Part shown: in pieces, positions 1 through 36,819 of the stretch | Numbering within the stretch: position 1 is the first letter of the stretch | Layout: the number at the start of each line of letters is the position of its first letter | Origin: a virus | Reading direction: 5' to 3' (one strand) | Length of the DNA stretch: 36,819 nucleotides | Virus record (IMG/VR): IMGVR_UViG_3300025132_000122 | Coordinates: 1 to 36,819 of that record | The notes under the pieces: model-generated | What the model saw: only the letters and a program-made list of their open reading frames with translations | Told to the model about the DNA's origin: nothing | Databases searched by the model: none | Translations under genes and position numbers: made by a program

Positions 1-934
1 TGATTCCGCTGCCGTCCATGTCCAGCTTGACATACGACTCGTATATCTGGACAACCATTTCGCTATCAGCGGCAGCTTGGTTAGGGTATACGTCCGTGGA
101 GTCATAGGCGTGTCTGGCCATATACTCTTGGCTGGTGGTGATATCGTCTGCACCACCTGTGTAGCCGGGGAGGTCTTCCACCACGTCCGGGTCAAATCCC
201 ATCTGGAGCAGTTCGCTTTTGGACTTGTGCGAACGATGGCAAATGAACCGAGCATCTTCTAACGTCTTGGCACCACGGTTAATCAGGAACTCTTCCGGTG
301 GTACGTTTTCAATGGTGACCTTGCCCTCCATCGATGTCCTTGCAAAGGTGACATCGTGAAAGACCTCTTCGACCTGCACTATGTCTCCGGTGAACGGGTC
401 AGGCTGCTCGCTGATCGTTACGTTTTCTTGGTGTTCTACGACTTCTAGCTCGTCGTCTTGCTGGAGCAGGGAGTATTCCTGCTCTGTAAGGTTCTGATAT
501 GACTCTGTGGTGGTCTTTTCAACCTCTTCCCAGTAGTGTTTGACAATGCCGACTTTTTGCATCAGCGCGTCAAGGAACATGTTATATAGCACCATAAACC
601 CGTCGTTCTGCTTGTAGAACACGTGATTTACGTACTTGGTGGCCTGTTCTGCGGTGTCCTCGTCTTCCGGACCTTCTGGTACAAACTTGACTACCCTGTC
701 TCCAGCTGTGAAGATGCGCATCAGGCTGGGCATCATCCACATCAGGGTGTCTTGAACATCGGTGACTACGACCTGACTACGCCCGTCTTCCTCGTTGCCA
801 AACGGTTCTCCATAGAAATACTCCATGGAGCGTTCGCGCTGGGAGCTTATCTCGGAGTCCATGTAGTCCGAGGAGCCGTTGATCTCGCTTTCTACAAGAC
901 CAATGATTTCCTCTTCAGTCATATTATGAGCCAT
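1..934 (-). CDS. Portal protein, N-terminal part (runs off the left edge)
   Basis: This reading frame starts at the ATG at 934-932 and stays open for 311 codons to the edge. The portal forms the ring at the capsid vertex through which DNA enters and leaves. The N-terminal region is acidic and rich in Tyr/Glu, including the segment SMEYFYGEPFGNEEDGRSQ and a methionine-rich stretch LMWMMPSLMRIF, typical of podovirus portals of marine phages. The start overlaps the end of the preceding small basic gene by 11 bases. The C-terminal part is at the right end of the window, so the genome was cut inside this gene. Family assignment is from memory of related portals; the gene position between terminase and capsid genes supports it. 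Confidence 0.85.
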   Translation of the reverse strand, partial: MAHNMTEEEIIGLVESEINGSSDYMDSEISSQRERSMEYFYGEPFGNEEDGRSQVVVTDVQDTLMWMMPSLMRIFTAGDRVVKFVPEGPEDEDTAEQATKYVNHVFYKQNDGFMVLYNMFLDALMQKVGIVKHYWEEVEKTTTESYQNLTEQEYSLLQQDDELEVVEHQENVTISEQPDPFTGDIVQVEEVFHDVTFARTSMEGKVTIENVPPEEFLINRGAKTLEDARFICHRSHKSKSELLQMGFDPDVVEDLPGYTGGADDITTSQEYMARHAYDSTDVYPNQAAADSEMVVQIYESYVKLDMDGSGI

Positions 935-1166
935 TTTTTCTCTTTCTCCCGGAGGCTGTCACAGACCAGTTTACCCTGCCGGGTCCAGTTTTCTTTCTAG
1001 CTTCAGACTTTGAAATTCGTTTTGCCACGTTCTTGGGGCGACAGGCAGGGTATCCACGCTTGTCTTTTTTGCCACTGCGGCCACAAGGCTTTCCGGTTTT
1101 GACATCCACCCACTGTTCGTCAAACCACTTGCCTAGGCCACCTCTACGCTTTCTTGCTCTTCGCAC
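924..1166 (-). CDS. Small basic cysteine-containing protein, DUF5872-like C-terminal half
   Basis: This is an 80-residue, very basic protein starting at GTG 1166. It contains GGLGKWFDEQWVDVKTGKPC, then CGRSG and GYPACRPK, a pattern I recall from the DUF5872 family found in phages and algal viruses. The two cysteines and many Lys/Arg suggest nucleic-acid contact, but function is unknown. It overlaps the next upstream gene by 23 bases in a +1 frame. In relatives I recall, the two parts form one protein, so this may be a split gene or a frameshifted pair. It lies between terminase and portal, so a role in packaging or in the virion is possible. Confidence 0.6.
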   Translation of the reverse strand: MRRARKRRGGLGKWFDEQWVDVKTGKPCGRSGKKDKRGYPACRPKNVAKRISKSEARKKTGPGRVNWSVTASGRKRKNGS

Positions 1167-1338
1167 GTTTCTTTACCCTGTTATCGGCACCTGACCATGT
1201 GCCACCCATGCGTTTGTATTCCTTTGCAGCCCAAGCGTTTGCATATGCGCTTGGATAGACTTTAAACTTAGCTCTGGCCTTTGCCTTGGCACGTGACCAC
1301 TTGGCCGGGTCGTTAGGCTTTGACTTTCCTCTTGCCAT
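1144..1338 (-). CDS. Small basic protein, DUF5872-like N-terminal half
   Basis: This 64-residue protein starts at ATG 1338. The segment KFKVYPSAYANAWAAKEYKR with the nearby RMGGTW is a characteristic conserved core of small viral proteins of the DUF5872 type. About one third of residues are Lys/Arg. Function is unknown. It overlaps the 42-residue gene upstream and the 80-residue gene downstream, so the three are likely translated in a coupled way from the leftward late transcript. Confidence 0.65.
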   Translation of the reverse strand: MARGKSKPNDPAKWSRAKAKARAKFKVYPSAYANAWAAKEYKRMGGTWSGADNRVKKRAKSKKA

Positions 1339-1441
1339 TTTTCTTCCTTACCTTTTTAAGATCAGCAGCGGTAATCTTGTTTCTAGGCGGTGCGACCCGT
1401 GCCAGCTTTTTCTGCTTTGGGCTGTATTTGCTAAATGGCAT
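1313..1441 (-). CDS. 42-residue basic protein between terminase and portal
   Basis: The ATG at 1441-1439 overlaps the TAA of the preceding gene (TAATG), and the frame closes at 1313 inside the next gene. The protein begins MPFSKYSPKQKKLARVAPPR and continues NKITAAD, followed by a Lys-rich tail. I recall similar short proteins beside terminase genes in marine podoviruses, but I cannot name the family. The overlaps at both ends are the main evidence that it is expressed. Function is unknown. Confidence 0.6.
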   Translation of the reverse strand: MPFSKYSPKQKKLARVAPPRNKITAADLKKVRKKNGKRKVKA

Positions 1442-1698
1442 TAGATATCAATACCCTTTTTAGGGTCAATTGATTTTATAACCTTTCTGCGTTTTTTTGC
1501 TTTTTGTTCTAAACTTTTCAGCATATTGTACAAAGGTGAATCTCTCTTTGGAACACTTGACAGCATTTCTTCACGGCTTTGATCTAACTGAAAATGTTTT
1601 TCAAAAGGACTTGCTTTTGCTGCTTCACTAAGTTGCTGAAGTCGTTTTCTTCTTTCCGCCAAAGATAAACGGTCTCTTTTTCGTGTAAACATGCTCAT
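1441..1698 (-). CDS. Hypothetical 85-residue charged protein
   Basis: This protein begins MSMFTRKRDRLSLAERRKRL and is helical and strongly charged throughout, with a basic C-terminus (KAKKRRK). Its start overlaps the terminase stop by one base and its stop overlaps the next ATG, so it belongs to the packaging operon. By eye the DNA is clearly more AT-rich than the flanking terminase gene, which hints at separate acquisition. I do not recognise the family. A coiled-coil or scaffolding role is possible but not shown. Confidence 0.6.
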   Translation of the reverse strand: MSMFTRKRDRLSLAERRKRLQQLSEAAKASPFEKHFQLDQSREEMLSSVPKRDSPLYNMLKSLEQKAKKRRKVIKSIDPKKGIDI

Positions 1699-3131
1699 TA
1701 GACTATTCCTGCGCTAGAGTATTTGATTTCTTGTTCGAATCCGTATCTACGGTAGTGTGTTTTGTTTTTGAGCTTCTCGCCAAAGCGTTCAACTGATAAC
1801 ACTGCGTATCTCATTGCTGAGATCAGGTCGTCTTTGATCGGAACTACTTTTCCGTTTTTCCGATGATAGAGACGCATTTCTTCCAGAGTTTCTGCACAGG
1901 ACTCAAAAATTTGCAAACGGCCTGTTTCAAACCGTTGTAGCATTTCGCTGATGCCTGCTTCAATTGAGTTATTACCATTTAGCTTACCTTCTGCTGGCGG
2001 GTTGGTAAAGTGTTCTGGTAGCATATAGACACCTAGGTCTCTGTACTGCTGTGCCAACTGAATGCCGGAGCCTTTGTCATGCTGTAGTCCGTCGTGTGGG
2101 AAAGCTACAGGTATACCGGGTGTCCTGCCGTTGAGTGCTGCTGCATGTGTCAGAGGTGTCTCTTTGCTTCTCCTGTATTCGTCATAGACGTAAATTATGT
2201 CATCGTCTGCGTCAAATGCGACCCAACTGATGGCAGTGGGGTGATCAAAGCCAAAGTCAATTGCAGCCAGCCGGGGGAAATGTTCTGGCAAGTCGAAATC
2301 TTCGCAGACGATGTCCTCTTCTGAGACAGGAAAGACCAACCCTGAGCCGAACACCGGAATACCCTTTGAGCGCATATCCCGCTCTGCTGGGCTATATACA
2401 GCTAGCAGCTGCTCCTTTGTTTTTTCGTCTAGGTGGTCTACGTCGTCCCATGTTGCTGTTATTAAGCTCTGACCCGGTTTCAGGTCGTTCATAAAAGCCG
2501 AGACTACGGATGTCATCCCCCGCTCCGGGGTGAAAGTCATATAGACAATCCCATCTGTATCTGCGGTTCGCGTTATGCACTGGCTAAAGATTTCCTGTTT
2601 TGGTTCCTCGTCTAGCCAGACAACGTCTATTGCCTCGCCCATGAACTTCTCAAAACCCTGCTCGTAGGCTTTGAAACTTATCTGGGAGTTGCCTCCTGAT
2701 TTGTGCTTGACCAGTACGGACGAGAAGGCATTTGGTACACCCGGTTTACGCACTGTTTCAACGATGTTGTCTAGCGGGACAGCGCCAGTGCCTTTCTTTG
2801 TTGGGTCTTGCGGGTTGCCAAAAAGTTCTTTCTGGATGATGTCTCTGGTGGTGTCGTTTGACTCACCAGCTGCCCACGCCCTGATCGGCTTGTTAAACTT
2901 GTGTCCCTTCCACCACTCCGGGTACTCTCCGGTCAGGTGGTATGCTGTCTCCGCTGCCCCACAGTAGGTTTTCCCTACCCGGTTAGCTGCCATTAAGATG
3001 CGTTGTGGACAACCTTGACCTTCGGTGTGAAACTTTGTCTGGTAACCGTATGGGTCGTATTGTGCAATGCGTCTTGTTTCTAGCCGCCGTTGTTTCTCTT
3101 GTAGTAGCTCTAGAACCTTTTCCTTATCCAC
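1698..3131 (-). CDS. terL: Terminase large subunit
   Basis: This is the ATPase-nuclease that drives DNA into the prohead and cuts the concatemer. The ATPase domain has Walker A AANRVGKT at residues 48-55 and Walker B VVWLDEE near 170-176. The RNase H-like nuclease domain has its first catalytic Asp in AAIDFGFD (about 289-296) and a late conserved KDDLISAMRYA segment with a further acidic residue. The length of 477 residues is usual for the family. Translation starts at a GTG (3131) that overlaps the end of the small-subunit gene by 8 bases. Confidence 0.95.
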   Translation of the reverse strand: MDKEKVLELLQEKQRRLETRRIAQYDPYGYQTKFHTEGQGCPQRILMAANRVGKTYCGAAETAYHLTGEYPEWWKGHKFNKPIRAWAAGESNDTTRDIIQKELFGNPQDPTKKGTGAVPLDNIVETVRKPGVPNAFSSVLVKHKSGGNSQISFKAYEQGFEKFMGEAIDVVWLDEEPKQEIFSQCITRTADTDGIVYMTFTPERGMTSVVSAFMNDLKPGQSLITATWDDVDHLDEKTKEQLLAVYSPAERDMRSKGIPVFGSGLVFPVSEEDIVCEDFDLPEHFPRLAAIDFGFDHPTAISWVAFDADDDIIYVYDEYRRSKETPLTHAAALNGRTPGIPVAFPHDGLQHDKGSGIQLAQQYRDLGVYMLPEHFTNPPAEGKLNGNNSIEAGISEMLQRFETGRLQIFESCAETLEEMRLYHRKNGKVVPIKDDLISAMRYAVLSVERFGEKLKNKTHYRRYGFEQEIKYSSAGIV

Positions 3132-3582
3132 GTAGCTTTACCACGTTTTTAGACAACCGCTCGATTTGCTCGTCAAGCTCTGCGTCGGTCAGGTCAGTGA
3201 CCTCTTTTACTACAGTTTCCTGCTTGTGGACTGCATCGTACCCCGCCCTGGACAAAATGTCTCTGGCAGCGTTGAGCTTGACGTTCTCAGACTCTGCTTC
3301 GCGCATCAGACGCTCTAGCACAGTCAAGGCCAACGTTGCCGTTTCACCTACCCGCTCCTTAATCCGCTTTTCAATATGGAGCCAAAGGTGACGTTGTAGT
3401 CGTTTGGCTCGATTCTTGCCGTTTGAATTGGGCGCAGTGTACCCAGCTTTGTAAAAGGCATCTTCCGGATCAAGGTGGTTGTCCACCAGCTCTAGCACAA
3501 ACTGGTGTTCCCGTTCAGTCAGCTGTGCGTCTGCTGCCTTTGGTTCTGTGTAGCTTGCGTACTTGCCAGTTTTCTTAGGCAT
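3124..3582 (-). CDS. terS: Terminase small subunit
   Basis: This 152-residue protein has an N-terminal helix-turn-helix-like region (LTEREHQFVLELVDNHLDPE, then AFYKAGYTAPNSNGKNRAKR), which in this family recognises the packaging site. A helical oligomerisation region and a C-terminal acidic/coiled segment follow. It directly precedes terL and overlaps it. It is the first gene of the leftward late operon: a consensus promoter lies 43-71 bases upstream, and a G-rich ribosome binding site (seven Gs then AGA) precedes the ATG. Confidence 0.85.
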   Translation of the reverse strand: MPKKTGKYASYTEPKAADAQLTEREHQFVLELVDNHLDPEDAFYKAGYTAPNSNGKNRAKRLQRHLWLHIEKRIKERVGETATLALTVLERLMREAESENVKLNAARDILSRAGYDAVHKQETVVKEVTDLTDAELDEQIERLSKNVVKLRG

Positions 3583-12264: not shown

Positions 12265-12704
12265 TGGCACCTACAGCACAGCACTACCTTGAAGGCGTTA
12301 TGTTCTTCCCCTACCTGTTCGACGTTAAGGATAAGTTCGACCGGTTCTCTGTTGCCTTGGCACTGGAGGGAGACCAGGTTGGTCATGCAAAGAAGCTGGG
12401 CCTAAAGGTCAAGCAGGAGGAAGGCAAGATGGATGGCCTGCCCTATGTCCAGCTGAAGAGCAACTACGAACCACAGCTGTTCGACGGTGACGGGAAGGTC
12501 TACAGCGGACCACGTCAGCTGGCCAATGGGTCAAAGGCTACTGTCCGCATCAGCCAGAAGCCGTACAACAATAAGTACGGCACGGGCGTGACCACGTTCA
12601 TGAACGCCGTGAAGATCACGGAAGCCATTGAGTACAACCCAGAAGGTGGATCGTCCTTTGCTGATACAAAGAAAGACGATCTGAACGATGACGTTCCGTT
12701 CTAA
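12264..12704 (+). CDS. Single-stranded DNA-binding protein, T7 gp2.5-like
   Basis: This 146-residue protein directly follows the polymerase (TAATG overlap). A beta-rich body is followed by the acidic tail KKDDLNDDVPF ending in Phe, the hallmark of phage and bacterial SSBs that dock with polymerase and helicase. Sequence similarity to T7 gp2.5 is not obvious by eye; the tail, size and position support the call. Confidence 0.7.
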   Translation: MAPTAQHYLEGVMFFPYLFDVKDKFDRFSVALALEGDQVGHAKKLGLKVKQEEGKMDGLPYVQLKSNYEPQLFDGDGKVYSGPRQLANGSKATVRISQKPYNNKYGTGVTTFMNAVKITEAIEYNPEGGSSFADTKKDDLNDDVPF

Positions 12705-13305
12705 GTACGGACATTGGGACACAGATGCGGTAGGCGAGTTCAATCCGGGAGACCATTTTGGATTTGTCTACCGCATCACCCACAAGGAGTCAGGCAAAAG
12801 CTACATAGGATGCAAGCACCTATACAAAACCAGACGAGGAAAGCGTACAACGGAAAGCAACTGGAGGTATTATAGCTCAAGCTCCAAGGAGTTGGCACCA
12901 TTGATAGCCAAACTTGGAAAGAAGCAATTCACCTTTGCAATTTTGTTGTTATGTAGAAACAAGCGTGACCTGTACTACAACGAGATGAAGATGCAGGTCG
13001 ATCTGGATGTTCTTGAGAGCGACAACTTTTATAACAAGAACATCGGTGGCAGGCGTTTCTTCAGACCGGTCAAGAGTTATGGCGAAGAGTTCCGGGACAA
13101 ACTACGGGGCACCAAGAACCCCAAGTACCTAGGACCGTTCACTATCACCTATGACAACGGTGTTCAACACCGGGTCACAGATATGTCCATGAGAGAGTTC
13201 GCTGAGTGCCATGGATACGACCAAGCCAATCTCAGCAAGGTCAAGAACGGTAAAGCTAAACGTTGCAAAAACATTGTGAAGGTGGAATATGACGAAGACA
13301 ATTGA
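12688..13305 (+). CDS. GIY-YIG endonuclease with C-terminal HTH
   Basis: The 205-residue protein has the GIY-YIG core at GFVYRITHKESGKSYIG (residues 25-41), a basic helix with ESNWRYYSSSS, the conserved Glu99 in YYNEMK, and NFYNKN. The C-terminal MSMREFAECHGYDQANLSKV and the following KNGKAKRCKNI look like a NUMOD-type DNA-binding helix, as in homing endonucleases. It begins inside the SSB tail codons (17-base overlap). T7 carries endonuclease I at the same place after its SSB gene, so this may be a functional substitute; a homing enzyme is the alternative. Confidence 0.75.
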   Translation: MTFRSKYGHWDTDAVGEFNPGDHFGFVYRITHKESGKSYIGCKHLYKTRRGKRTTESNWRYYSSSSKELAPLIAKLGKKQFTFAILLLCRNKRDLYYNEMKMQVDLDVLESDNFYNKNIGGRRFFRPVKSYGEEFRDKLRGTKNPKYLGPFTITYDNGVQHRVTDMSMREFAECHGYDQANLSKVKNGKAKRCKNIVKVEYDEDN

Positions 13306-14267: not shown

Positions 14268-15939
14268 GAGCAATGAAAACCCGATGTTCCGTAGCAAGTT
14301 CAGCGAGGACATCTTCAAACAGAAATATGCACATGAGGGGTGCAGCACTTGGTCTGACCTAGCCAAGACACTGGCAGAGGATGTCTGCAAGGGGGTGCTG
14401 AAAGACGACGAGGTGGAAGCACTGACCGAGATCATTCGGGACTTGAAGTTTATCCCCGGTGGTCGCTACCTGTACTATGCTGGCAGACCGAACAAGTTCT
14501 TTAACAACTGCTACCTGCTTCGGGCAGAGGAGGACAGCCGGGAGGACTGGGCCAACCTTAGCTGGAAATCGGAGTCCTGTCTGATGACGGGCGGTGGTAT
14601 CGGCATAGACTACTCGGTGTACCGTCCGGAGGGTTCTGGTCTGAGCAAGACAGGTGGACTGGCCAGTGGCCCTATCCCCAAGATGCAGATGATCAACGAG
14701 ATCGGACGCAGGGTCATGCAGGGAGGGAGCCGCAGGTCTGCTATCTATGCCAGCCTGAACTGGAAACACAGGGACGTGGAGACGTTTTTATCCAGTAAGA
14801 ACTGGTACGACATGCCAGTAGGATCGACCGGGTTCAGCGTTGGCCAGGTCAAGGAGCAGGACTTCAACTTCCATGCACCGCTGGACATGACGAACATCAG
14901 TGTCAACTATGACACAGAGTGGCTGTTGAACTACTGGAAGACCGGAGAAGTTGGGGATGTCTTTAGGACTAATGTACGTCAAGCTCTTAGAACAGCTGAG
15001 CCGGGATTCAGTTTCAACTTCTTCGACAAGGAGAACGAGACGCTGCGTAACGCCTGCACAGAGGTCACAAGTGCTGACGACAGCGACGTGTGCAATCTTG
15101 GTAGTATCAACCTTGGTCGCGTTGACGATCTGAAAGAGTTCACGCAGATCGTAGAGCTAGCAACTAAGTTCCTGATCTGCGGTACACTGAAAGCCAAGCT
15201 GCCCTATGAGGCTGTGTATAAGACACGCGAGAAGAACCGCAGGCTGGGACTTGGCCTGATGGGTATGCACGAATGGCTGATCAAGAAGGGGAGTAAGTAT
15301 GAAGTCACCGACGAGCTTCATAAGTGGCTGGCTGTCTATCAAGGCATCAGCGACGACACTAGCCGTGCGATGGCTGATAGTCTTTCAGTTAGCCGTCCTG
15401 TGGCTAATCGGGCTATCGCCCCCACCGGATCAATTGGCATATTGGCTGGTACCAGCACTGGCGTTGAGCCTATATTTGCAGTGGCGTATAAGCGCAGGTA
15501 TCTGAAGGGCGGCAACAAGTGGCACTATCAGTACGTGGTGGACAGCGCAGCGCAGGAGATCATTGACCTGTACGGTGTCAAGCCTGACAACATCGAGTCC
15601 GCACTGGACTTGGCCGAGGACTACCGACGCAGGCTGAAGTTCCAAGCAGATGTCCAAGACTACGTTGATATGTCTATCAGTAGCACGATCAATCTTCCGC
15701 AATGGGGCAGCAAGTTGAACAATGAAGACACCGTTGATGGTTTTGCTGATGCTCTTGCCAGCTATGCTCACAGGCTGCGTGGTTTCACCGTGTATCCGGA
15801 CGGATGCAGAGGAGGCCAGCCGCTTAGCAGTGTGCCTTACAGTGAAGCTGCCGATAAACTGGGAGAAGAGTTTGAAGAGTCAATTGAAACCCACGATATC
15901 TGCGACATCACAGGACACGGAGGGAGTTGCGGCGTCTGA
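14257..15939 (+). CDS. nrdJ: Class II (B12-dependent) ribonucleotide reductase
   Basis: It converts ribonucleotides to deoxyribonucleotides using adenosylcobalamin. The 560 residues include the first redox Cys85 (FNNCYLL), the active-site Asn265-Cys267-Glu269 (NACTE) and the second redox Cys279 (VCNLGSINLG). RLGLGLMGMHEWL, RAIAPTGSIGILAGTSTGVE and a C-terminal CDITGHGGSCGV follow. No small subunit gene is near, in line with class II. With ThyX it feeds dNTP supply. The host must make or import cobalamin. The start lies within the end of the previous gene. Confidence 0.92.
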   Translation: MTFKSNENPMFRSKFSEDIFKQKYAHEGCSTWSDLAKTLAEDVCKGVLKDDEVEALTEIIRDLKFIPGGRYLYYAGRPNKFFNNCYLLRAEEDSREDWANLSWKSESCLMTGGGIGIDYSVYRPEGSGLSKTGGLASGPIPKMQMINEIGRRVMQGGSRRSAIYASLNWKHRDVETFLSSKNWYDMPVGSTGFSVGQVKEQDFNFHAPLDMTNISVNYDTEWLLNYWKTGEVGDVFRTNVRQALRTAEPGFSFNFFDKENETLRNACTEVTSADDSDVCNLGSINLGRVDDLKEFTQIVELATKFLICGTLKAKLPYEAVYKTREKNRRLGLGLMGMHEWLIKKGSKYEVTDELHKWLAVYQGISDDTSRAMADSLSVSRPVANRAIAPTGSIGILAGTSTGVEPIFAVAYKRRYLKGGNKWHYQYVVDSAAQEIIDLYGVKPDNIESALDLAEDYRRRLKFQADVQDYVDMSISSTINLPQWGSKLNNEDTVDGFADALASYAHRLRGFTVYPDGCRGGQPLSSVPYSEAADKLGEEFEESIETHDICDITGHGGSCGV

Positions 15940-16499
15940 TGTACGGTGACATCTACTACTCTGGTGGCTCAGTGCCTGACATGCCGGAGGAGTTCTGCAA
16001 AGCTGTTATGCAGCTGAGCCGGAACTTCGAAGAGCAGGAGGCACAGGTGCTAGACGGTCAGACAAAGACACAGATCAGGAACAATTCGATCTATGCCCTA
16101 GATGACGAGAAGTTCAGATCGATTGTCTTTGATTGGATTCAGACGGCCAACTTTGAGATGGGTTGGCTGTTTGATCTGACCGAGCTAGAGAACCTACAGC
16201 TGAGCAAGTACACCATGCAGGAGAGGTACGGGTGGCACCACGATGTACAACCGGGGAACAAATGCCGCAAGCTGACGTTCAATGTTGTGCTCAATGAAGA
16301 CTACGAAGGGGGAGACTTTCAGTTCAGCTGGGGGTCTCCCAGTGCTCCGTACAGGAAGCGCGTGATCCCTGAGCCTGCCTTGAGAAGAGCAGGCAAGATC
16401 GTGATCTTCCCGTCTTACTACTACCACAGGGTACAGCCTGTTATCAAAGGTGTGCGTTATAGCCTGACGGGCTGGGCATGGGGTCCACCATTTAGGTAG
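15939..16499 (+). CDS. 2OG-Fe(II) oxygenase (prolyl hydroxylase-like)
   Basis: This 186-residue dioxygenase has iron ligands His100 and Asp102 (WHHDVQ) and His163 (YYYHRVQPV), plus Arg173 for 2-oxoglutarate (GVRYSLTGWAWG). EGGDFQF lies between them. This is the P4Hc/PKHD-type fold common in marine phages; the substrate, possibly a protein or nucleic acid, is unknown. ATG 15939 overlaps the RNR stop (TGATG) and follows GGAGGGAG. An upstream in-frame TTG at 15927 sits too close to that site. Confidence 0.85.
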   Translation: MYGDIYYSGGSVPDMPEEFCKAVMQLSRNFEEQEAQVLDGQTKTQIRNNSIYALDDEKFRSIVFDWIQTANFEMGWLFDLTELENLQLSKYTMQERYGWHHDVQPGNKCRKLTFNVVLNEDYEGGDFQFSWGSPSAPYRKRVIPEPALRRAGKIVIFPSYYYHRVQPVIKGVRYSLTGWAWGPPFR

Positions 16500-16525
16500 A
16501 CAAACCTATGGTTTTGTGGTATACT
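16497..16525 (+). promoter_or_regulatory. Extended -10 sigma70 promoter for the heat-shock gene
   Basis: TAGACA (16497-16502) and TATACT (16520-16525) are 17 bases apart, each five of six to consensus. TGG directly before TATACT gives the TGn extended -10. It starts within the last codons of the oxygenase gene. The predicted transcript start is near 16532. Confidence 0.75.
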
Positions 16526-16531
16526 TTTTTT

Positions 16532-16574
16532 GAGGTGCCAATCCTGGGCCTCTAATTCTTGCCAATTGGGAGAA
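16532..16574 (+). promoter_or_regulatory. Putative ROSE-like RNA thermometer in the hsp20 leader
   Basis: Two small hairpins can form between the predicted transcript start and the ATG. The first pairs GAGGU-CC (16532-16539, G16537 bulged) with GGGCCUC (16546-16552). The second pairs UUCUU-CC (16556-16563, G16561 bulged) with GGGGAGAA-like bases 16568-16574 (GGGAGAA), leaving loop AAUU and fully masking the ribosome binding site GGGAG (16568-16572). Both share a UGCC strand with a bulged G facing GGG. ROSE elements of bacterial small heat-shock genes use a U(U/C)GC motif with a bulged G in the same way. Function is inference. Confidence 0.45.
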
Positions 16575-16578
16575 ACAA

Positions 16579-16998
16579 ATGACTATTATGTTCCCGTCCA
16601 TATCGGACTCTGCTCTTGGATTTGAGCGCCTGTTTGACAATATGCACAAGGTTGCAGAAGTAATGTCAGGCAACCAGAACTTCCCACCGCACAGCGTTGT
16701 GAAGCTAGGGGAAGACAGCTATGAGATCACCATGGCCGTTGCCGGATTTAAGAAGGAGGACATTTCCGTTCACGTAAAGGAAGACATTCTGTCTGTTACG
16801 TCTAGCGGTGTCAAACACGATGACAAAGATGCCGAGATTATATATGGAGGCATTGCGTTCCGCCCGTTCAAGAAGCTGTTCCTGTTGGGCGAACATGTAA
16901 ATGTAGAGGATGCTGGTCTGAGCGACGGCATTCTGCGCATCAAACTGGTACGGGAAGTACCGGAAGCAAAAAAGGCTAGGCAGATAGAACTTAGCTGA
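16579..16998 (+). CDS. hsp20: Small heat-shock protein (Hsp20 / IbpA family)
   Basis: This 139-residue holdase chaperone has the alpha-crystallin domain at about 40-128: EDSYEITMAVAGFKKEDISV, then the A-x-x-x-n-G-v-L-type motif seen here as GLSDGILRIKLVREVPE, with GGIAFRPFKKLFLLGEHV before it. A short N-terminal arm and a C-terminal tail without a clear IxI motif flank it. Small heat-shock proteins are known in marine T4-like phages, where they may protect virion assembly; here one ends the replication arm. It has its own promoter and a structured leader. Confidence 0.92.
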   Translation: MTIMFPSISDSALGFERLFDNMHKVAEVMSGNQNFPPHSVVKLGEDSYEITMAVAGFKKEDISVHVKEDILSVTSSGVKHDDKDAEIIYGGIAFRPFKKLFLLGEHVNVEDAGLSDGILRIKLVREVPEAKKARQIELS

Positions 16999-17002
16999 CT
17001 AT

Positions 17003-17047
17003 CGGGTGGTGCCGTAATACACCCGTGGGGGGCCAACGGTTAGCCCC
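17003..17047. terminator. Paired hairpins at the convergent junction
   Basis: CGGGTG (17003-17008) pairs with CACCCG (17020-17025). Next, GGGGCCAA at 17029-17036 faces TTAGCCCC at 17040-17047; on the minus strand this is an 8-base stem with a 3-base loop that includes the stop codon of the leftward gene. Neither has a U-tract, so if they end transcription they do so inefficiently or with another factor. Confidence 0.45.
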
Positions 17048-17327
17048 TCAACCCTATCTCATCTTTAAAAGCATTTATAGCCAGACCAAGAAGCCCGGCT
17101 CTAGGAAGGTCTGGCAAGTTTTGCATAATTTGCGGCATCGCTGCAAAAAGAGGCCCAAGAAGCCCACCCGTGGGTACGGCTTGCAAGTTTTGTTGCGTGA
17201 CGTAGTCTGGCAGAGAAGTTCCTATTCCACGGGCGGCACTCAGTATAGGCTGTTGAACGATTTGCGGAGCCTGCTGCATAGGCATCTGAGATAGCAGTCC
17301 ATATCCATATGGGTTATATCCAAACAT
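17040..17327 (-). CDS. Hypothetical 95-residue Gln/Pro/Leu-rich protein
   Basis: Start at ATG 17327 follows GGAG by about eight bases. It begins MFGYNPYGYGLLSQMPMQQA and continues with Gln/Pro-rich and hydrophobic stretches (LPRAGLLGLAINAF). It is the last gene of the leftward late transcript, after the lysis genes. A minor virion or lysis-associated role is possible; no family recognised. Confidence 0.6.
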   Translation of the reverse strand: MFGYNPYGYGLLSQMPMQQAPQIVQQPILSAARGIGTSLPDYVTQQNLQAVPTGGLLGPLFAAMPQIMQNLPDLPRAGLLGLAINAFKDEIGLRG

Positions 17328-17331
17328 TACG

Positions 17332-17502
17332 TCACTCCATCGACACCGTTGATTTTCCCCAACCACTGTTGCGCCTGTACATTTGCTTACAGTGGCAGTC
17401 TCCACAATCGCAGTGTGGACACGGTTGCGGACAGTGGCACTCTTGCGGCTGACACACGCAGGTTATGCAAGCGTCTTCAGTTTCGGGTATATTATTTTGC
17501 AT
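17332..17502 (-). CDS. Metallothionein-like cysteine-rich protein
   Basis: ATG 17502 overlaps the last 11 bases of the holin gene in another frame. The 56-residue product has ten cysteines between residues 12 and 38 (12, 15, 17, 22, 24, 28, 31, 33, 36, 38) and three histidines (23, 30, 37), arranged in CxC and CxxC pairs such as CHCPQPCPHCDCGDCHC. This matches the chemistry of bacterial metallothioneins, which bind Zn, Cu or Cd. The tail is basic. A zinc-binding structural role is the alternative. The frame is short and is the only claim to a gene besides its composition and coupling. Confidence 0.7.
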   Translation of the reverse strand: MQNNIPETEDACITCVCQPQECHCPQPCPHCDCGDCHCKQMYRRNSGWGKSTVSME

Positions 17503-17935
17503 TCTTCACCATTGAAGCACCAAAGTACAGCCCGATGATCGCGCTGAGCAAATGTGTATCCAGTGGTGTCAGGACCAAGCCTTTCAGGCTCTGCCACTTG
17601 ATCTCTTCTGATCCTTCGAAGATACCAAACAGCGCACCGGGGTTGAACTCAGTGTAGCCAACGTTGACAGGTATCTCAGGCCAGAACACTGCCACCATCT
17701 TTGGCCAGACAATCACAGCAAACACAGCCATCAGCGCAATGATCCTGCGCGTAACTTGGAAGCCCTTGTTCTCGTACCTGCGAGCTAGGTCAGTGGCCTC
17801 TGACTGCGCAGCAAGGCCGTCTATGGCCCTGTTGAATGCTTCCTGCTTGGCTTTCTGGTTCTGGCTCCACAGTGTCATCACCCCGGACAACAGCCCGGAG
17901 CCTAGCATGGTGATCAGTTCAAAGGGTATACCCAT
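17492..17935 (-). CDS. Holin-like membrane protein
   Basis: This 147-residue protein has an N-terminal hydrophobic segment (ELITMLGSGLLSGVMTLW), a charged helical stretch with KAKQEAFNRAIDGLAAQSEA, then two hydrophobic segments (RIIALMAVFAVIVWPKMVAV and LLSAIIGLYFGASMV). The pattern matches the phage holin family with three membrane segments. It would permeabilise the inner membrane to time lysis. It follows lysozyme and a coiled-coil membrane protein, a normal lysis cassette order. Confidence 0.75.
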   Translation of the reverse strand: MGIPFELITMLGSGLLSGVMTLWSQNQKAKQEAFNRAIDGLAAQSEATDLARRYENKGFQVTRRIIALMAVFAVIVWPKMVAVFWPEIPVNVGYTEFNPGALFGIFEGSEEIKWQSLKGLVLTPLDTHLLSAIIGLYFGASMVKNAK

Positions 17936-18297
17936 CAGTCTGCCTTTCTTGTGTCTGCCACAGGCGGATGTTTGCCATTGTGCATGGCATAGAGTCGGTC
18001 ATAAGATTTTTCAAGTTGCTTGACTGTAGTCAACAGTTCTGCTAGCTGCATGTGATCTCTGCGCAGGTTCTCAGGGCTGGCCATCTTTGCCAATATGTTG
18101 ATCCTCTGCTCCTGTGTCTCCGTGGATGTGACCAACTTGTCACCACGTGAGTCCATCTGGCGCAGACGCCTCTCCATGTCAGACAACTTTTCGATGATGT
18201 CCTTGATCTGCATTTTGGCCACCGCACTGGCTCCTGCCACGCTGAACAGGATACCGGCAATGGTGACCACCAGCCGGATGTCGATACCGCCTTCCAT
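17935..18297 (-). CDS. Membrane-anchored coiled-coil protein, possible i-spanin
   Basis: This 120-residue protein has one N-terminal membrane segment (about residues 8-28, LVVTIAGILFSVAGASAVAK) followed by a long helical coiled coil (IIEKLSDMERRLRQMDSRGD, later TTVKQLEKSYDRLYAM). Such a layout is like Rz-type inner-membrane spanins, and it lies between lysozyme and holin. No overlapping lipoprotein partner with a clear lipobox is visible, so spanin function is uncertain. Confidence 0.6.
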   Translation of the reverse strand: MEGGIDIRLVVTIAGILFSVAGASAVAKMQIKDIIEKLSDMERRLRQMDSRGDKLVTSTETQEQRINILAKMASPENLRRDHMQLAELLTTVKQLEKSYDRLYAMHNGKHPPVADTRKAD

Positions 18298-18300
18298 TTA

Positions 18301-18960
18301 TTACCTAATTCCCTGAAACAGTCTTCGTTCTTTCGCTCTACGATCAACAAGACCTTTTGATATTTTTTTATTAACCTTTACAAATCCAATTTTAGGATCA
18401 AAAGCTTCTTTTAAAAATCCAGAAATGTTACCTTTTTCTAAATTATTTTTAGCGTTGCTTTTCCCCCACATTCCCTGTCCTATATTATAAATAAGAGAAG
18501 TTAGAGCTTGAAGTTCATTGTCTGTGTAAGAACCCTTACCTTTTTCAAGAGATTTTCGAGCAACTTCTCTAGCATTAGCTGTGTCTTGTTTATATAATTG
18601 GTTTACTTGTTGGGGAGTGAGTCCGTTTTTAAACTCTACCAACTGATTGCCTATTTTTATTTTACCTGTTCTATCTTCATTTTTGTTTACTTTGTGTCCC
18701 CAACCTATAGTTGGCCTACCTCCTTCAAGACTTTCATGCGCAAACCACTGACCATTTTCAAAACCTACTAGTGCTTCATTTTCAAACTTCTTTAAAAGAG
18801 TATCCGGCCTTACAGGATTTCTTCCCGGTCTCGGCACATCTAACATACCCTGATCAGTTTGAGCAGGAGACGCTCCAAGAAGACCACCAATGTTTTCGTC
18901 ATAGATGCGCTCAAACCCTCTACCAATCTGGTCGAGGATGCCTAGGATACCTTGTGCCAT
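18301..18960 (-). CDS. Phage lysozyme (muramidase), AT-rich gene
   Basis: This 219-residue enzyme starts at ATG 18960, just after the upstream stop; an in-frame ATG at 19110 lies inside the neighbour. The lysozyme domain begins near residue 55 with HESLEGGRPTIGWGHKVN, the EGG-TIGxGH signature of phage muramidases, followed by LTPQQVNQLYKQDTANAREV and LQALTSLIYNIGQG. The first 50 residues form a separate helical/Gly-rich leader without a signal peptide. By eye the domain-coding part is much more AT-rich than its neighbours, suggesting acquisition. It may be the endolysin or a virion lysozyme. Confidence 0.85.
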   Translation of the reverse strand: MAQGILGILDQIGRGFERIYDENIGGLLGASPAQTDQGMLDVPRPGRNPVRPDTLLKKFENEALVGFENGQWFAHESLEGGRPTIGWGHKVNKNEDRTGKIKIGNQLVEFKNGLTPQQVNQLYKQDTANAREVARKSLEKGKGSYTDNELQALTSLIYNIGQGMWGKSNAKNNLEKGNISGFLKEAFDPKIGFVKVNKKISKGLVDRRAKERRLFQGIR

Positions 18961-18961
18961 A

Positions 18962-19516
18962 TTAGAAGTTCCTTGTGTATCGGAAGCCTGCGGTGATGTT
19001 GTCGAGCAAGCCCTTAACACTAGAGGTTCGCTCAGGCACAGGAGCATTAACATAAGCACTGAGACCATCTTGCGCATAGTTGACACCCATTGTACCACCT
19101 TGTGGACCATAGTTCAATGTGCCGGTGAAGTCACCCATTGGCACCTGTGCGTCAATGTTGTAACCAAGTAGCCCACCTTGGCCCATGGTTGCCTGCGCTT
19201 GGCCTTGTAGGTAAGGACTGATAGCGGACAGGTCTAGCCTAGGTGTTACAGTGGTGGCCATTGGGTCTAGGTAGTTGGGCTGTGCGGAGACAGACATACC
19301 TTCAGGTAACGCATCGCGCATCATGCGTATGTCGGAACCAAACCTGTCGTCTATGTCCCTGCCTGTCTGACGAATGTCCTCTACGTTCTCCGGGCCAAGA
19401 GCCATGGCACCAAGACCAACAGCGCCTCTCATGGCCTGCTCTTTGGCCGCGTCTAGCACAGGCTCAGCGCCCTGTCTCTGAGCGGCCTGTTCCAGTTGTT
19501 CAAATATGCTTGCCAT
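18962..19516 (-). CDS. Putative internal virion protein (184 residues)
   Basis: Begins MASIFEQLEQAAQRQGAEPV and is followed by Ala/Gly-rich segments and a C-terminal part with repeating polar beta-like motifs (NYGPQGGTMGVNYAQDGLSA). It overlaps the end of the large internal protein by one base. Placed after the large ejection-type protein, it is likely ejected or structural. No named family. Confidence 0.6.
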   Translation of the reverse strand: MASIFEQLEQAAQRQGAEPVLDAAKEQAMRGAVGLGAMALGPENVEDIRQTGRDIDDRFGSDIRMMRDALPEGMSVSAQPNYLDPMATTVTPRLDLSAISPYLQGQAQATMGQGGLLGYNIDAQVPMGDFTGTLNYGPQGGTMGVNYAQDGLSAYVNAPVPERTSSVKGLLDNITAGFRYTRNF

Positions 19517-22230
19517 TATCTTTCCTTAGCTAGCCGCTCGTTATACTTCTCTGCCCCGCCTAGGAACCAGTTGTACAGCATTGGTCCAATGACTGGAATG
19601 CTTCTGGCGTACTGAGACAGGTTGGGGTCTTCTTCTGTTAGCTCAGCTGTGCCACCAAGCACAGCATCTATGATCGGAGTAGCAGGCGCAAGAGTTTCAA
19701 TCGCGGCATCTGTGAACTTGCCTTCGCTCAGGTACTTGTCGCTCATGTACTTGTTCACGCCAAAAACACCCAGCAATGCCCACATTGAATTGTTAGGCAA
19801 GTCCTCTGCACGTACATCCCGACCAAGTAAAAAGTCTTTGGTGGTCTGTGTGCCCACGTTTGCAGCAGCTAAGTAGGATGCAAGCACTCCTGCTTTCTTT
19901 GCAGCAGCCAGCTTGTTTCCCTTCTTGTACTCTTGCACAATGTCTCTGCGCACTATGTCATATTGTTTCAAGGTGAACGACTTCAAGGCATACAGGATAC
20001 GACCATTGGGATTTTTCAGGTAGCCCTCTGGAAGCTCAAGCAGGGTGATCGGCTGTACGTCAGACAATTCATTAAAGGCATGTAGCTTTACCGCCTCTGT
20101 TATACGACCAGTCTGTAGGTCCGCAACCAGCCCGTCGATCTCATCACCGTAGAACTTGCCCCACTTCTTACGGAACGCCTGCTCACCCAGCGCAGTCTTG
20201 ACCATCTTCTGGTTCTTACGCAGCGAGGCGTTCATCACAGTTTCTTTACCTAATCGGTCAACTGCCTTAAAACCAGTCTTGGCAAACATCTGGTCAAGAA
20301 GCTTAGCAGTCTTGCGCACATTGGTAAATTCTGCCGAGATAGTATCAAGACCTTGGTCAACCAGCTTGATGTTCTTGGTGTTGAACATGGCAGCAATGGT
20401 ATCAGAGAAGCCATACTTGGCAGCAGACATAGCCAAATCGCCCAGCTGTGTGATAGCTGAGATGGGGTTGGCAATCGTTCCCATGTACCCCAAGTCACGT
20501 AGGAAACCAATTGGGCTACTAGATGAACGCTCACCTCCCATGAACCTGGATTCGATAAGCTGTTTCAGTTCCAGTTGCTGGTCTGGCTTCAGGTTGCCGT
20601 CCTGCACCTCCCTGTCAACAAGCCTGCCTATTGACGATTTGAGATCAATCCCGTCATCGTCTAGGACCATATCATCGCGCTTGGTGCCACGTCCTAGGAA
20701 GCGGCCGCGTTCAATGTTGTTCACAGCGTTGCGGATATATAGGTGCAGCGCCTCCTCTGGGTCACGATAGAACGGCAGCGTCTGGTCTGTCAGTTTACGT
20801 ATGGTTCTCTTGCGGCTGTTAGGCGGCAAGTTAGCATCCATCTTCTGACCATATCCGCGCAAAGCCTTGTTGACTATGTCCTCTCTGGTCAGATCGTCTA
20901 TGTCTCGTATGTCTATCTGCTTACGCTTGGCATACTCTTCCAAAGCTGTGTCTATAACACCAGCAGGTTCTGTTCCCAAGGATGCTCTGAACTGTTTGTA
21001 GCTTTTCATGCTACGTGGGAAGTAGTTGCTAAGCTCGTTCAGCTTAACACCGCCTATGTCCTTCTGCTCATCGAACAAAGTCTTCAGCTGTGTTTTGACA
21101 TTTGCAAACTCAGCCTTCATTGGCTCATCCATCAAGGCTTCAGCTTGTTTGAAATCTTGATTGAACAGATGACGAGCAACTTGTTCTTTTCTAGTCTTTG
21201 GCATGGCTTTCAGCTGACGCATGAAAGGCTCAGCTGCTTTCAGCTCATCAGCTGTACGAACACGGATGTCTCTTTCAAACACTCTGAGCCTACCCAGAAC
21301 AGGCTCAGATATATTTTTAATTCTGGTAGATACGCTTCCTAAATATGTATCCAAACTCTCAGCTAGAGGACCAACTGTCCTAGACCAAGCACTGTCGTTT
21401 ACGATAGCATCATCAACTGCTTTATCAGCTGTTTCCTCCAAGGCCAAAGCTGCGTCACTGACAACCTCTTTGCCACCACGTTCTCTGAGTGCTCTGACAG
21501 CCTTGCCAGCAACGGGAAATAATGCGCCACCCGCACCGCCCAATACAGTGTGTATCGCCGCCTTGGCTGGATCAATCTTGCCTTCAAGCGCCAAGTCTTC
21601 GGCTGAGCTGTAAGACAAACCAAGAGCACCACCAATCGCGGCAGCTGCCTTGATGCCTTGACCAACAGGGAGCAAAGTTGTGGGATCAGCAAGAGCACCT
21701 GTGATCTCACCAATGGCCTGTGCTGTACCTTCTTGTGGCTCAAAGTACGGACCATACTCCTGCATCAGATCGCGTTCACGTTTTCGCAGGATCATCTCTC
21801 TGCGCGTGTCAAAGTCAGCGTCGTTAAAGCCTTCGCCGTATGCTTCTTCTGGCGGAACGTACCTGAACGTATTGAAGTCTACTTCTCCAAAGGGAGCAAC
21901 GGAGCGCAGGATGTCAGTGGTGTACCTAATGAAGTTACCTGCCTTGTCGAAACCATACATGAACTGCTGCATGATATCATCAGAGCCACTGTCGATCAGC
22001 TTGTTGTCTACGATGCGGTCACCGGCAGCAGCACCTAGCTCTTGCAACCTAGCAGAAGACGCAACGTCCTGCTCAGTCAGACGCTGACCAAGATCGCGCC
22101 TGTCTTCTTCAGACGAGAATATCCTAACAAGGTTATTACCAGCTACCTGATCACCGGGCTGCACCCCTAGCTCTTGAAGCCGGGGAGAGGACATGATGTT
22201 CTCAAGCGTTATGGTCTGCGTTTGCGCCAT
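19516..22230 (-). CDS. Large internal virion (ejection) protein
   Basis: At 904 residues this is the longest gene in the window. The N-terminus has two copies of a short unit, SSPRLQELGVQPGDQVAGNN and SARLQELGAAAGDRIVDNK, likely a small repeat domain. Small Ala/Gly-rich hydrophobic segments (GQGIKAAAAIGGALGLSYSS, GGAGGALFPVAGKAV) near 195-265 could insert in membranes. The rest is helical and charged. Size and place between tail and lysis genes fit the T7 gp15/gp16-like role in DNA ejection. No transglycosylase motif is seen. Confidence 0.7.
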   Translation of the reverse strand: MAQTQTITLENIMSSPRLQELGVQPGDQVAGNNLVRIFSSEEDRRDLGQRLTEQDVASSARLQELGAAAGDRIVDNKLIDSGSDDIMQQFMYGFDKAGNFIRYTTDILRSVAPFGEVDFNTFRYVPPEEAYGEGFNDADFDTRREMILRKRERDLMQEYGPYFEPQEGTAQAIGEITGALADPTTLLPVGQGIKAAAAIGGALGLSYSSAEDLALEGKIDPAKAAIHTVLGGAGGALFPVAGKAVRALRERGGKEVVSDAALALEETADKAVDDAIVNDSAWSRTVGPLAESLDTYLGSVSTRIKNISEPVLGRLRVFERDIRVRTADELKAAEPFMRQLKAMPKTRKEQVARHLFNQDFKQAEALMDEPMKAEFANVKTQLKTLFDEQKDIGGVKLNELSNYFPRSMKSYKQFRASLGTEPAGVIDTALEEYAKRKQIDIRDIDDLTREDIVNKALRGYGQKMDANLPPNSRKRTIRKLTDQTLPFYRDPEEALHLYIRNAVNNIERGRFLGRGTKRDDMVLDDDGIDLKSSIGRLVDREVQDGNLKPDQQLELKQLIESRFMGGERSSSSPIGFLRDLGYMGTIANPISAITQLGDLAMSAAKYGFSDTIAAMFNTKNIKLVDQGLDTISAEFTNVRKTAKLLDQMFAKTGFKAVDRLGKETVMNASLRKNQKMVKTALGEQAFRKKWGKFYGDEIDGLVADLQTGRITEAVKLHAFNELSDVQPITLLELPEGYLKNPNGRILYALKSFTLKQYDIVRRDIVQEYKKGNKLAAAKKAGVLASYLAAANVGTQTTKDFLLGRDVRAEDLPNNSMWALLGVFGVNKYMSDKYLSEGKFTDAAIETLAPATPIIDAVLGGTAELTEEDPNLSQYARSIPVIGPMLYNWFLGGAEKYNERLAKER

Positions 22231-35745: not shown

Positions 35746-36819
35746 CTATGCCTTTATGTTTTTGTCAGAGTTCATTTCAAATCCAAGCTCAATACCCTTG
35801 AGCTTCAGTTCTTCTTCTTTCAGCGCCATCTCGTGCTCTACTTCTATGCGCTCAAGTTCTAGCTTAGCTGCTTTGATTTCAAGTTCTTTTGCTTTGACCT
35901 CTGCTTCAAGCTGCGTAGCCTGTGCAATTGTCATCTGGGCCTGTGCCTGCATTTGACCTAGCTGCTCTTGAGCACTCGGCGGAGGCGGCTCTGTAGGCGG
36001 TGTACTGATAAACTTGTCTACGTTCTTGATGCCCATTTCGTCTGCTATTTCGCGAACCAGGTTGTAAACGTTACCTGGCTGTATCATGCCTTGGGTTTGC
36101 TGTCCAACTTTTTCTATCAGGCCAGCAAAGTTGCTGATGTTCTGTAGTCTGACATCTTGGTCACCGTAGCCAATGCCAACTTCAATGTCTACGTCTAGGT
36201 CTTCTCGCCAGCTGGCAGGATCAATCTGAAAGTAGTTGTTGTTCAGCCGGACAACCTTCTTACGGTCTTCGTACCGCTGGATCAGGTTGTAGATCGACTT
36301 GAACATATTCCTTACGCCAGTGTCTGCAAAGACCCTAGCTATTAGTTCCAGCCGTCCTTGGGCATTGGTCAGCGCAGCGGTGACTGCACCGGTAGTTACG
36401 TGCGTTTTCAGAACGTCTGCGCTAAGCCCCTGCGTCTTGGGATTAACACCAGTGCGACCGCTCTTGATGTCTTCCCAGTATTGGAGCATCTGAAAGCTGT
36501 ACGGCTGAAGGCTAGGCGTCTGAATCGGCTGTAAGGCACTAGGGCTGCGTGTACGGACGATGCCACCGGGCCTGTTGGTCAACAGGTCGTCAATGTTGAC
36601 TTGGCCTTCTACAACTTGGAACCTGCCGTTGTTGGACAGGTACATATTGTCTAGCAGGTTTCTGGTTAGCGTAGACCGGATCAGTTGAATGTCTTCTACC
36701 GTTTCTGCTACCGACAGTCCGTAGAACTTATGAGGAATCGGTATAGGACAGACAGTGCTGAACGGAATGTAGTCGATAGGCTCAATGTCTAGCAACTCTG
36801 AACCAGCGTGACAGATTTT
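35746..36819 (-). CDS. Portal protein, C-terminal part (runs off the right edge)
   Basis: The frame is open from the right edge (KICHAGSELLDIEPIDYIPF) and closes at 35746; 357 residues are seen. It contains VCPIPIPHKFYGLSVAETVE and a long C-terminal coiled coil (QAQAQMTIAQATQLEAEVKA, KELEIKAAKLELERIEVEHE), both usual for podovirus portals. With the 311 residues at the left edge the full protein is about 670 residues. The frames of the two ends differ by two bases (modulo three), so a short piece is missing at the joint. Confidence 0.88.
   Translation of the reverse strand, partial: KICHAGSELLDIEPIDYIPFSTVCPIPIPHKFYGLSVAETVEDIQLIRSTLTRNLLDNMYLSNNGRFQVVEGQVNIDDLLTNRPGGIVRTRSPSALQPIQTPSLQPYSFQMLQYWEDIKSGRTGVNPKTQGLSADVLKTHVTTGAVTAALTNAQGRLELIARVFADTGVRNMFKSIYNLIQRYEDRKKVVRLNNNYFQIDPASWREDLDVDIEVGIGYGDQDVRLQNISNFAGLIEKVGQQTQGMIQPGNVYNLVREIADEMGIKNVDKFISTPPTEPPPPSAQEQLGQMQAQAQMTIAQATQLEAEVKAKELEIKAAKLELERIEVEHEMALKEEELKLKGIELGFEMNSDKNIKA

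Follow-up and report, generated by a model that had tools for sequence, protein, structure and literature searches.

An open reading frame (ORF) among the late genes of a marine-type phage is a real gene under strong purifying selection, and its Cys- and His-rich product, to judge from its sequence, is metallothionein-like in design. The gene starts within the coding region of a probable holin, and its product belongs to a mini-protein family that is unnamed so far and is matched by no profile family or solved structure.

The window analysed here is the complete 36,819-nucleotide IMG/VR record IMGVR_UViG_3300025132_000122, a 36.8-kb virus sequence with a GC content of approximately 50%. Replication and nucleotide genes occupy the plus strand (primase/helicase, thymidylate synthase, PolA, Cas4-like exonuclease, ribonucleotide reductase, 2OG-Fe(II) oxygenase and Hsp20), and the minus strand carries the terminase, portal, head, tail and lysis genes. 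The top matches of PolA are pelagiphages, at approximately 40% identity. With TerS/TerL at its left end and portal at its right, every one of them on the minus strand, the record has the appearance of a circularly permuted genome that is close to complete and is cut between TerL and portal. A protein similar to the homing-endonuclease-like gene product is found at the same place in two relatives (L009 and L132). The Cys-rich gene is the next to last of the minus-strand structural and lysis block, in the order GH24 lysozyme, transmembrane (TM)/coiled-coil gene, 147-aa membrane gene, Cys-rich gene. The relevant features are as follows:

1-3582, minus strand: TerS/TerL, left end
12688-13305: homing-endonuclease-like gene, between PolA and Cas4-like exonuclease
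15927-16998: 2OG-Fe(II) oxygenase and Hsp20 genes, convergent with the late block
17040-17327, minus strand: next late gene (MFGYNPYGYG...), directly behind the holin-like gene where the Cys-rich gene is absent
17328-17491, minus strand: stretch missing in the near-identical phages L388-L390 (alignment, empty site)
17332-17502, minus strand: Cys/His-rich gene, 56 aa, 10 Cys, 3 His (conserved frame, purifying selection, relatives)
17389-17469, minus strand: 27-residue core CITCVCQPQECHCPQPCPHCDCGDCHC, putative metal cluster (conserved core; Cys/His interchange in the wider set)
17492-17935, minus strand: holin-like membrane protein, 147 aa, stop overlapping the Cys-rich gene start by 11 nt
17935-18297, minus strand: protein of 120 aa with N-terminal TM segment and coiled coil, weakly spanin-like in layout
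18301-19110, minus strand: GH24 phage lysozyme (endolysin; PF00959 E 2.5e-16; phrog_7 endolysin)
19516-22230: late protein, 904 aa, no confident Pfam or PHROG match
35746-36795, minus strand: portal, right end

The original prediction described a 56-residue ORF with ten Cys in 27 residues and three His, and gave no strand. Translation confirmed the ORF on the minus strand, where positions 17332-17502 encode MQNNIPETEDACITCVCQPQECHCPQPCPHCDCGDCHCKQMYRRNSGWGKSTVSME; the plus-strand reading contains a stop. The ten Cys fall within residues 12-38, the His residues are at positions 23, 30 and 37, the core has no aromatics besides His, and no signal peptide was seen in the window protein. The predicted start was also correct: the ATG (17502-17500) lies 11 nt inside the 147-aa gene, overlapping its stop (17494-17492), with a Shine-Dalgarno-like GGTGAAG immediately upstream. 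First-order Markov versions of the window (n = 200) yielded no ORF of at least 40 aa with ten Cys per 27 residues; the maximum, nine in 27, was reached in three of them.

Peptide and motif scans of IMG/VR identified close relatives on approximately 20 viral contigs, which fall in two phage backbones. In the first (the window, L009, L244 and L132) the gene directly follows the 147-aa protein; in the second (L013, L238 and L246, among others) small basic proteins and the terminase come after it. Across all pairs of relatives, the 27-residue core has a pS of 0.80, near saturation, and a pN of 0.04; with the shared Cys codons removed these values are 0.73 and 0.07. Between the window and a single relative (L001) there are approximately 16 synonymous differences and one amino acid change. 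No stop or shift interrupts the frame in relatives, where it is intact wherever the gene is present and retains the start overlap with the upstream gene, while each of the other five frames of the core has stops in at least one relative or does not keep its residues. Conservation of the frame at near-saturated synonymous sites is the decisive evidence that this is a real gene.

A relaxed pattern, CxxCxxxCHCxxxCxxCxCxxC, gave at least 120 matches, and pooling distinct proteins with the earlier matches produced a wider set of at least 98 distinct proteins of 28-95 aa (mean 44) with the core CxxC-x3-CHC-x3-CxxCxC-xxC. Examples are MIKCEKCGCSCHCEMTCINCDCAGCTHKE, MTCIHCEHPCHCEKKCENCVCEDCNCRDEEE and a 28-aa member, MKCEKCGCPCHCEMTCINCDCAGCTHKE. 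Profile searches with members matched no Pfam, NCBIfam or PHROG family, and the sequences are too short and too Cys-rich for common descent to be proven. L132, whose loop is one residue shorter, forms a link between the window's group and the short one. Between subfamilies only the ligands are conserved, with no non-ligand residue common to all, whereas within the window's own group conservation extends to the non-Cys residues and the tail, a hint of a partner. A further sample was picked through its neighbour gene rather than its Cys residues, so is independent of the Cys search, and yielded loop variants that keep the Cys: a 12-residue insertion in L399-L402 and CDC replacing CHC in L435. 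Four members, among the matches listed, have a C-terminal TM segment of their own. In the MKTFCFECKHDCHC subfamily (L276, L292, L298, L380; L293, L316, L381) the protein has at its end either a TM segment or an amphipathic stretch, cationic and rich in Trp, behind an internal Met.

One copy resides in a phage that has been cultured, Pelagibacter phage HTVC023P, as an ORF without annotation (MN698239.1, 29014-29178, plus strand) that matches a family member in tblastn (70.6% identity, E 2e-5). It has the family core, with eight Cys and CHC, but differs from the window protein in that this core is shorter and the ORF overlaps the 3' end of gp44, among structural genes. This gp44 is annotated as PurM. 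An M15 peptidase gene lies 2.7 kb from the ORF; zinc supply to an M15 endolysin was rejected as a general reason for the family, as the lysozyme encoded in the window and in several others is of the GH24 type. Proteins starting MAYLNANIP or MAYLASNIP (HTVC023P, locus L261, 5349-5993; L337, 3207-3854; L013, 9338-9997), with a doubtful PHROG label of ferredoxin, recur next to the Cys-rich gene in a different group of phages. At L013 (8159-11287) and similar loci, unrelated small basic proteins have near-identical tails (AKGGGVRKPKLK, AMGGGVRKVRY, RRMGGPIRKPRMK), as if sharing a common C-terminal tag. Outside viral contigs, the strict group-A DNA motif had no match in 257 Gb of bacterial and archaeal genomes (species-level collection), and a search of plasmids gave no match.

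The pattern of substitution within the core points to metal. The search fixed eight Cys, plus one His in the relaxed pattern, and left two further core columns free. Among the matches listed (n = 83), the residue counts are 44 C, 37 H and 2 D for column 6 and 33 H, 32 C, 13 N and 5 D for column 24, while C and H make up 2.1% of residues in the other free columns. Cys-His interchange is tolerated at metal sites and not in disulfides, so both columns suggest ligands rather than disulfide partners, and on this basis we regard a metal cluster as a very probable biochemical reading. Binding of several d10 ions in a thiolate cluster is indirectly backed by the same interchange and, by analogy, we infer that His among the ligands would favour Zn or Cd over Cu(I). 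An AlphaFold2 model from 41 family sequences, computed with no metal, has low confidence (pLDDT 57.6), which fits a metal-organised core and proves nothing.

Whether these proteins are metallothioneins in the strict sense is a separate matter. The window protein has the low mass (56 aa), the high proportion of Cys in CxC and CxxC pairs and the scarcity of aromatics that serve as biochemical criteria for the class. It matched no Pfam or PHROG entry, however, and a search of the window's own record with bacterial metallothionein family PF02069 was negative, with the same search positive in Synechococcus elongatus as a control; PF02068, which lacked a working control, also gave nothing on this record. 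On sequence, the protein is not a member of PF02069. Profile searching of the PDB returned insignificant matches only, to CCHC nucleocapsid zinc knuckles (E 0.33 and above). The original prediction of a metallothionein-like protein is partly upheld: the metal-ligand pattern with its Cys/His interchange supports it, but no metallothionein profile matched and the protein falls in none of the metallothionein families tested. The roles that it suggested, in buffering metal, in detoxification or in carriage of metal in the particle, are hypothetical. The open-access literature searched contained no paper on phage metallothioneins.

An independent scan, selected on the 147-aa protein alone, covered 80 loci. 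A Cys-rich ORF lies directly behind this protein in seven of the 49 loci at 73% identity or more, and in none of the 31 with more distant homologues. In L388-L390 the membrane protein is 97-99% identical and the Cys-rich gene is absent; the 2OG and Hsp20 genes of L388 are also 99% identical to those of the window. The membrane-protein stop in these phages abuts the ATG of the next gene, exactly where the window has approximately 165 extra bases. Since near-identical phages display such a clean empty site, the gene is an accessory one that is acquired or lost whole, and lysis does not depend on it. A link to the neighbouring 2OG-Fe(II) oxygenase was considered and rejected, as this backbone gene is present where the Cys-rich gene is absent.

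The placement originally proposed, in the lysis region, is borne out and recurs in other phage lineages. The 147-aa neighbour was called a holin, a label that its position makes probable, since it lies behind the GH24 lysozyme and TM/coiled-coil genes, but that has no profile support: the protein has no Pfam match and belongs to phrog_38283, of unknown function. It is 49-55% identical to pelagiphage and roseophage proteins, one of which is encoded directly behind a lytic transglycosylase gene. The 120-aa TM/coiled-coil protein matches an Rz-like spanin (phrog_739) at E 0.16 only. Among the matches listed, which are not phylogenetically independent, the gene directly upstream is holin-like in 45 of 98 same-strand loci (group 0, n = 31; group 11, n = 10; group 23, n = 4), and predicted TM content is 54% at this position versus 8-29% elsewhere. 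Group 11 consists of confident GTA_holin_3TM proteins (PF11351 E 2.3e-11; PHROG holin E 1.7e-27), the largest, group 0, falls below threshold against PF11351 (E 0.057), and group 23, which includes the window's own neighbour, has no Pfam match. Comparison of the three groups with hhalign, using shallow profiles, detected no homology and so lent no support to their common descent; the holin-adjacent placement is therefore not one inherited pair. In L274 and L278 (group 11), as in L327 (group 0), a GH24 gene lies immediately upstream of the holin-like gene, giving the order lysozyme, holin-like gene, Cys gene, to which the window, L132 and L244 add the TM/coiled-coil gene.

The explanation that we favour, with slightly less than even confidence, is an accessory, Zn-type metallothionein-like mini-protein that is made together with the holin and buffers or sequesters metal late in infection. 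Ten Cys and one to three His would bind approximately three to four ions of Zn(II) (or Cd), and these would themselves make up the protein core. Through translational coupling to the holin, expression might then fall late in infection, and the metal might be buffered or sequestered in the dying cell, as by bacterial metallothioneins; both steps are more tentative than the binding itself. The benefit would be optional rather than a step that lysis needs. Metal binding as the function itself is the best explanation because the gene is optional and the subfamilies share only their ligands, as is also the case among metallothioneins, and the position of the gene in the minus-strand structural and lysis block counts in the same direction. 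No metal-responsive regulator was seen beside the gene. Simple buffering does not account for the recurrent position behind holins, nor for the membrane tails that some members have.

These two features, coupling to unrelated holins and membrane tails, make the tuning of lysis a serious rival, if a less probable one. Here, a cytosolic, Zn-stabilised mini-protein co-translated with the holin would bind or modulate it and so adjust lysis timing, in the manner of the P1 antiholin LydB, a TM-less protein encoded with its holin (PMC9025707). The frequency of holin-like upstream genes, the recurring gene order, the lack of detectable homology between the three groups and the four members with their own TM segment all favour such a partnership, as does encoding with the holin itself: the start overlaps the holin-like gene in the window, and does so by a 4-nt ATGA in most short members, albeit with two of the three groups being uncertain holins and group 11 alone a confident one. 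The association is not obligatory, however, given the phages that have a nearly identical holin-like protein and lack the gene; more than half of the loci among the matches listed have another upstream neighbour, and the subfamilies share no residue beyond the ligands. A bolder proposal, which we judge improbable, is that these are widespread micro-metalloproteins of marine-type phages, some only 28 residues long, that are co-translated with unrelated holins and would set lysis timing by metal or redox sensing through a Zn-thiolate cluster.

It is also quite improbable that the protein is a zinc-finger-like domain of the zinc-knuckle style, binding nucleic acid or protein in regulation or packaging. 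Short members do contain CX2CX4HX4C, nucleocapsid knuckles were the sole PDB matches, all of them insignificant, and in the other backbone group A precedes small basic proteins and the terminase, but the spacing in the window protein is CX2CX7HX4C, a single knuckle needs far fewer than 8-10 Cys in 24-27 residues, and the core is poor in basic or aromatic contact residues. A disulfide-rich virion or envelope protein would suit the late-gene position and the structural genes among some neighbours, yet is very unlikely given the missing signal peptide, the CxC pairs and the Cys/His interchange at ligand positions. Low-complexity Cys-rich frames do turn up by chance in viral contigs, but a chance ORF of striking composition is already refuted here by the conserved frame at near-saturated synonymous sites, the retained overlapping start and the clean empty site.

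If the metal-binding reading is right, phages carry metallothionein-like proteins of their own in large numbers, which were overlooked because the genes span only 28-60 codons and match no profile. Phages might then directly influence cellular zinc or copper at lysis, or lysis timing might receive a metal or redox input. Direct tests are feasible, as near-identical phages exist with and without the gene and one carrier, HTVC023P, is in culture.

Among known systems, P1 LydB resembles the window protein in being small, TM-less and encoded with a holin gene; no sequence relation between the two is known, and LydB is not described as Cys-rich. The CCHC zinc knuckle shares its spacing with the short members but not with the window protein (C12-x2-C15-x7-H23-x4-C28), which has many more Cys. 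The beta domain of animal metallothioneins (Zn3Cys9) has a dense CxC/CxxC spacing within approximately 25-30 residues, as here, but differs from our protein, which has conserved His and no recognisable homology to it. The bacterial metallothioneins SmtA/BmtA (PF02069) differ in Cys spacing and give no profile match, ours being phage-borne and beside lysis genes, and SmtA has a zinc-finger fold that our core, nearly devoid of hydrophobic residues, could hardly form. Clusters of three or four Zn, bound by nine Cys plus His, are known from bacterial metallothioneins, Zn3Cys9His among them (PMC7387436, PMC10612145), and SmtA/BmtA share with the phage protein a length of approximately 56 aa, a Cys/His ligand set, CxC and CxxC pairs and, probably, a three- or four-metal cluster.
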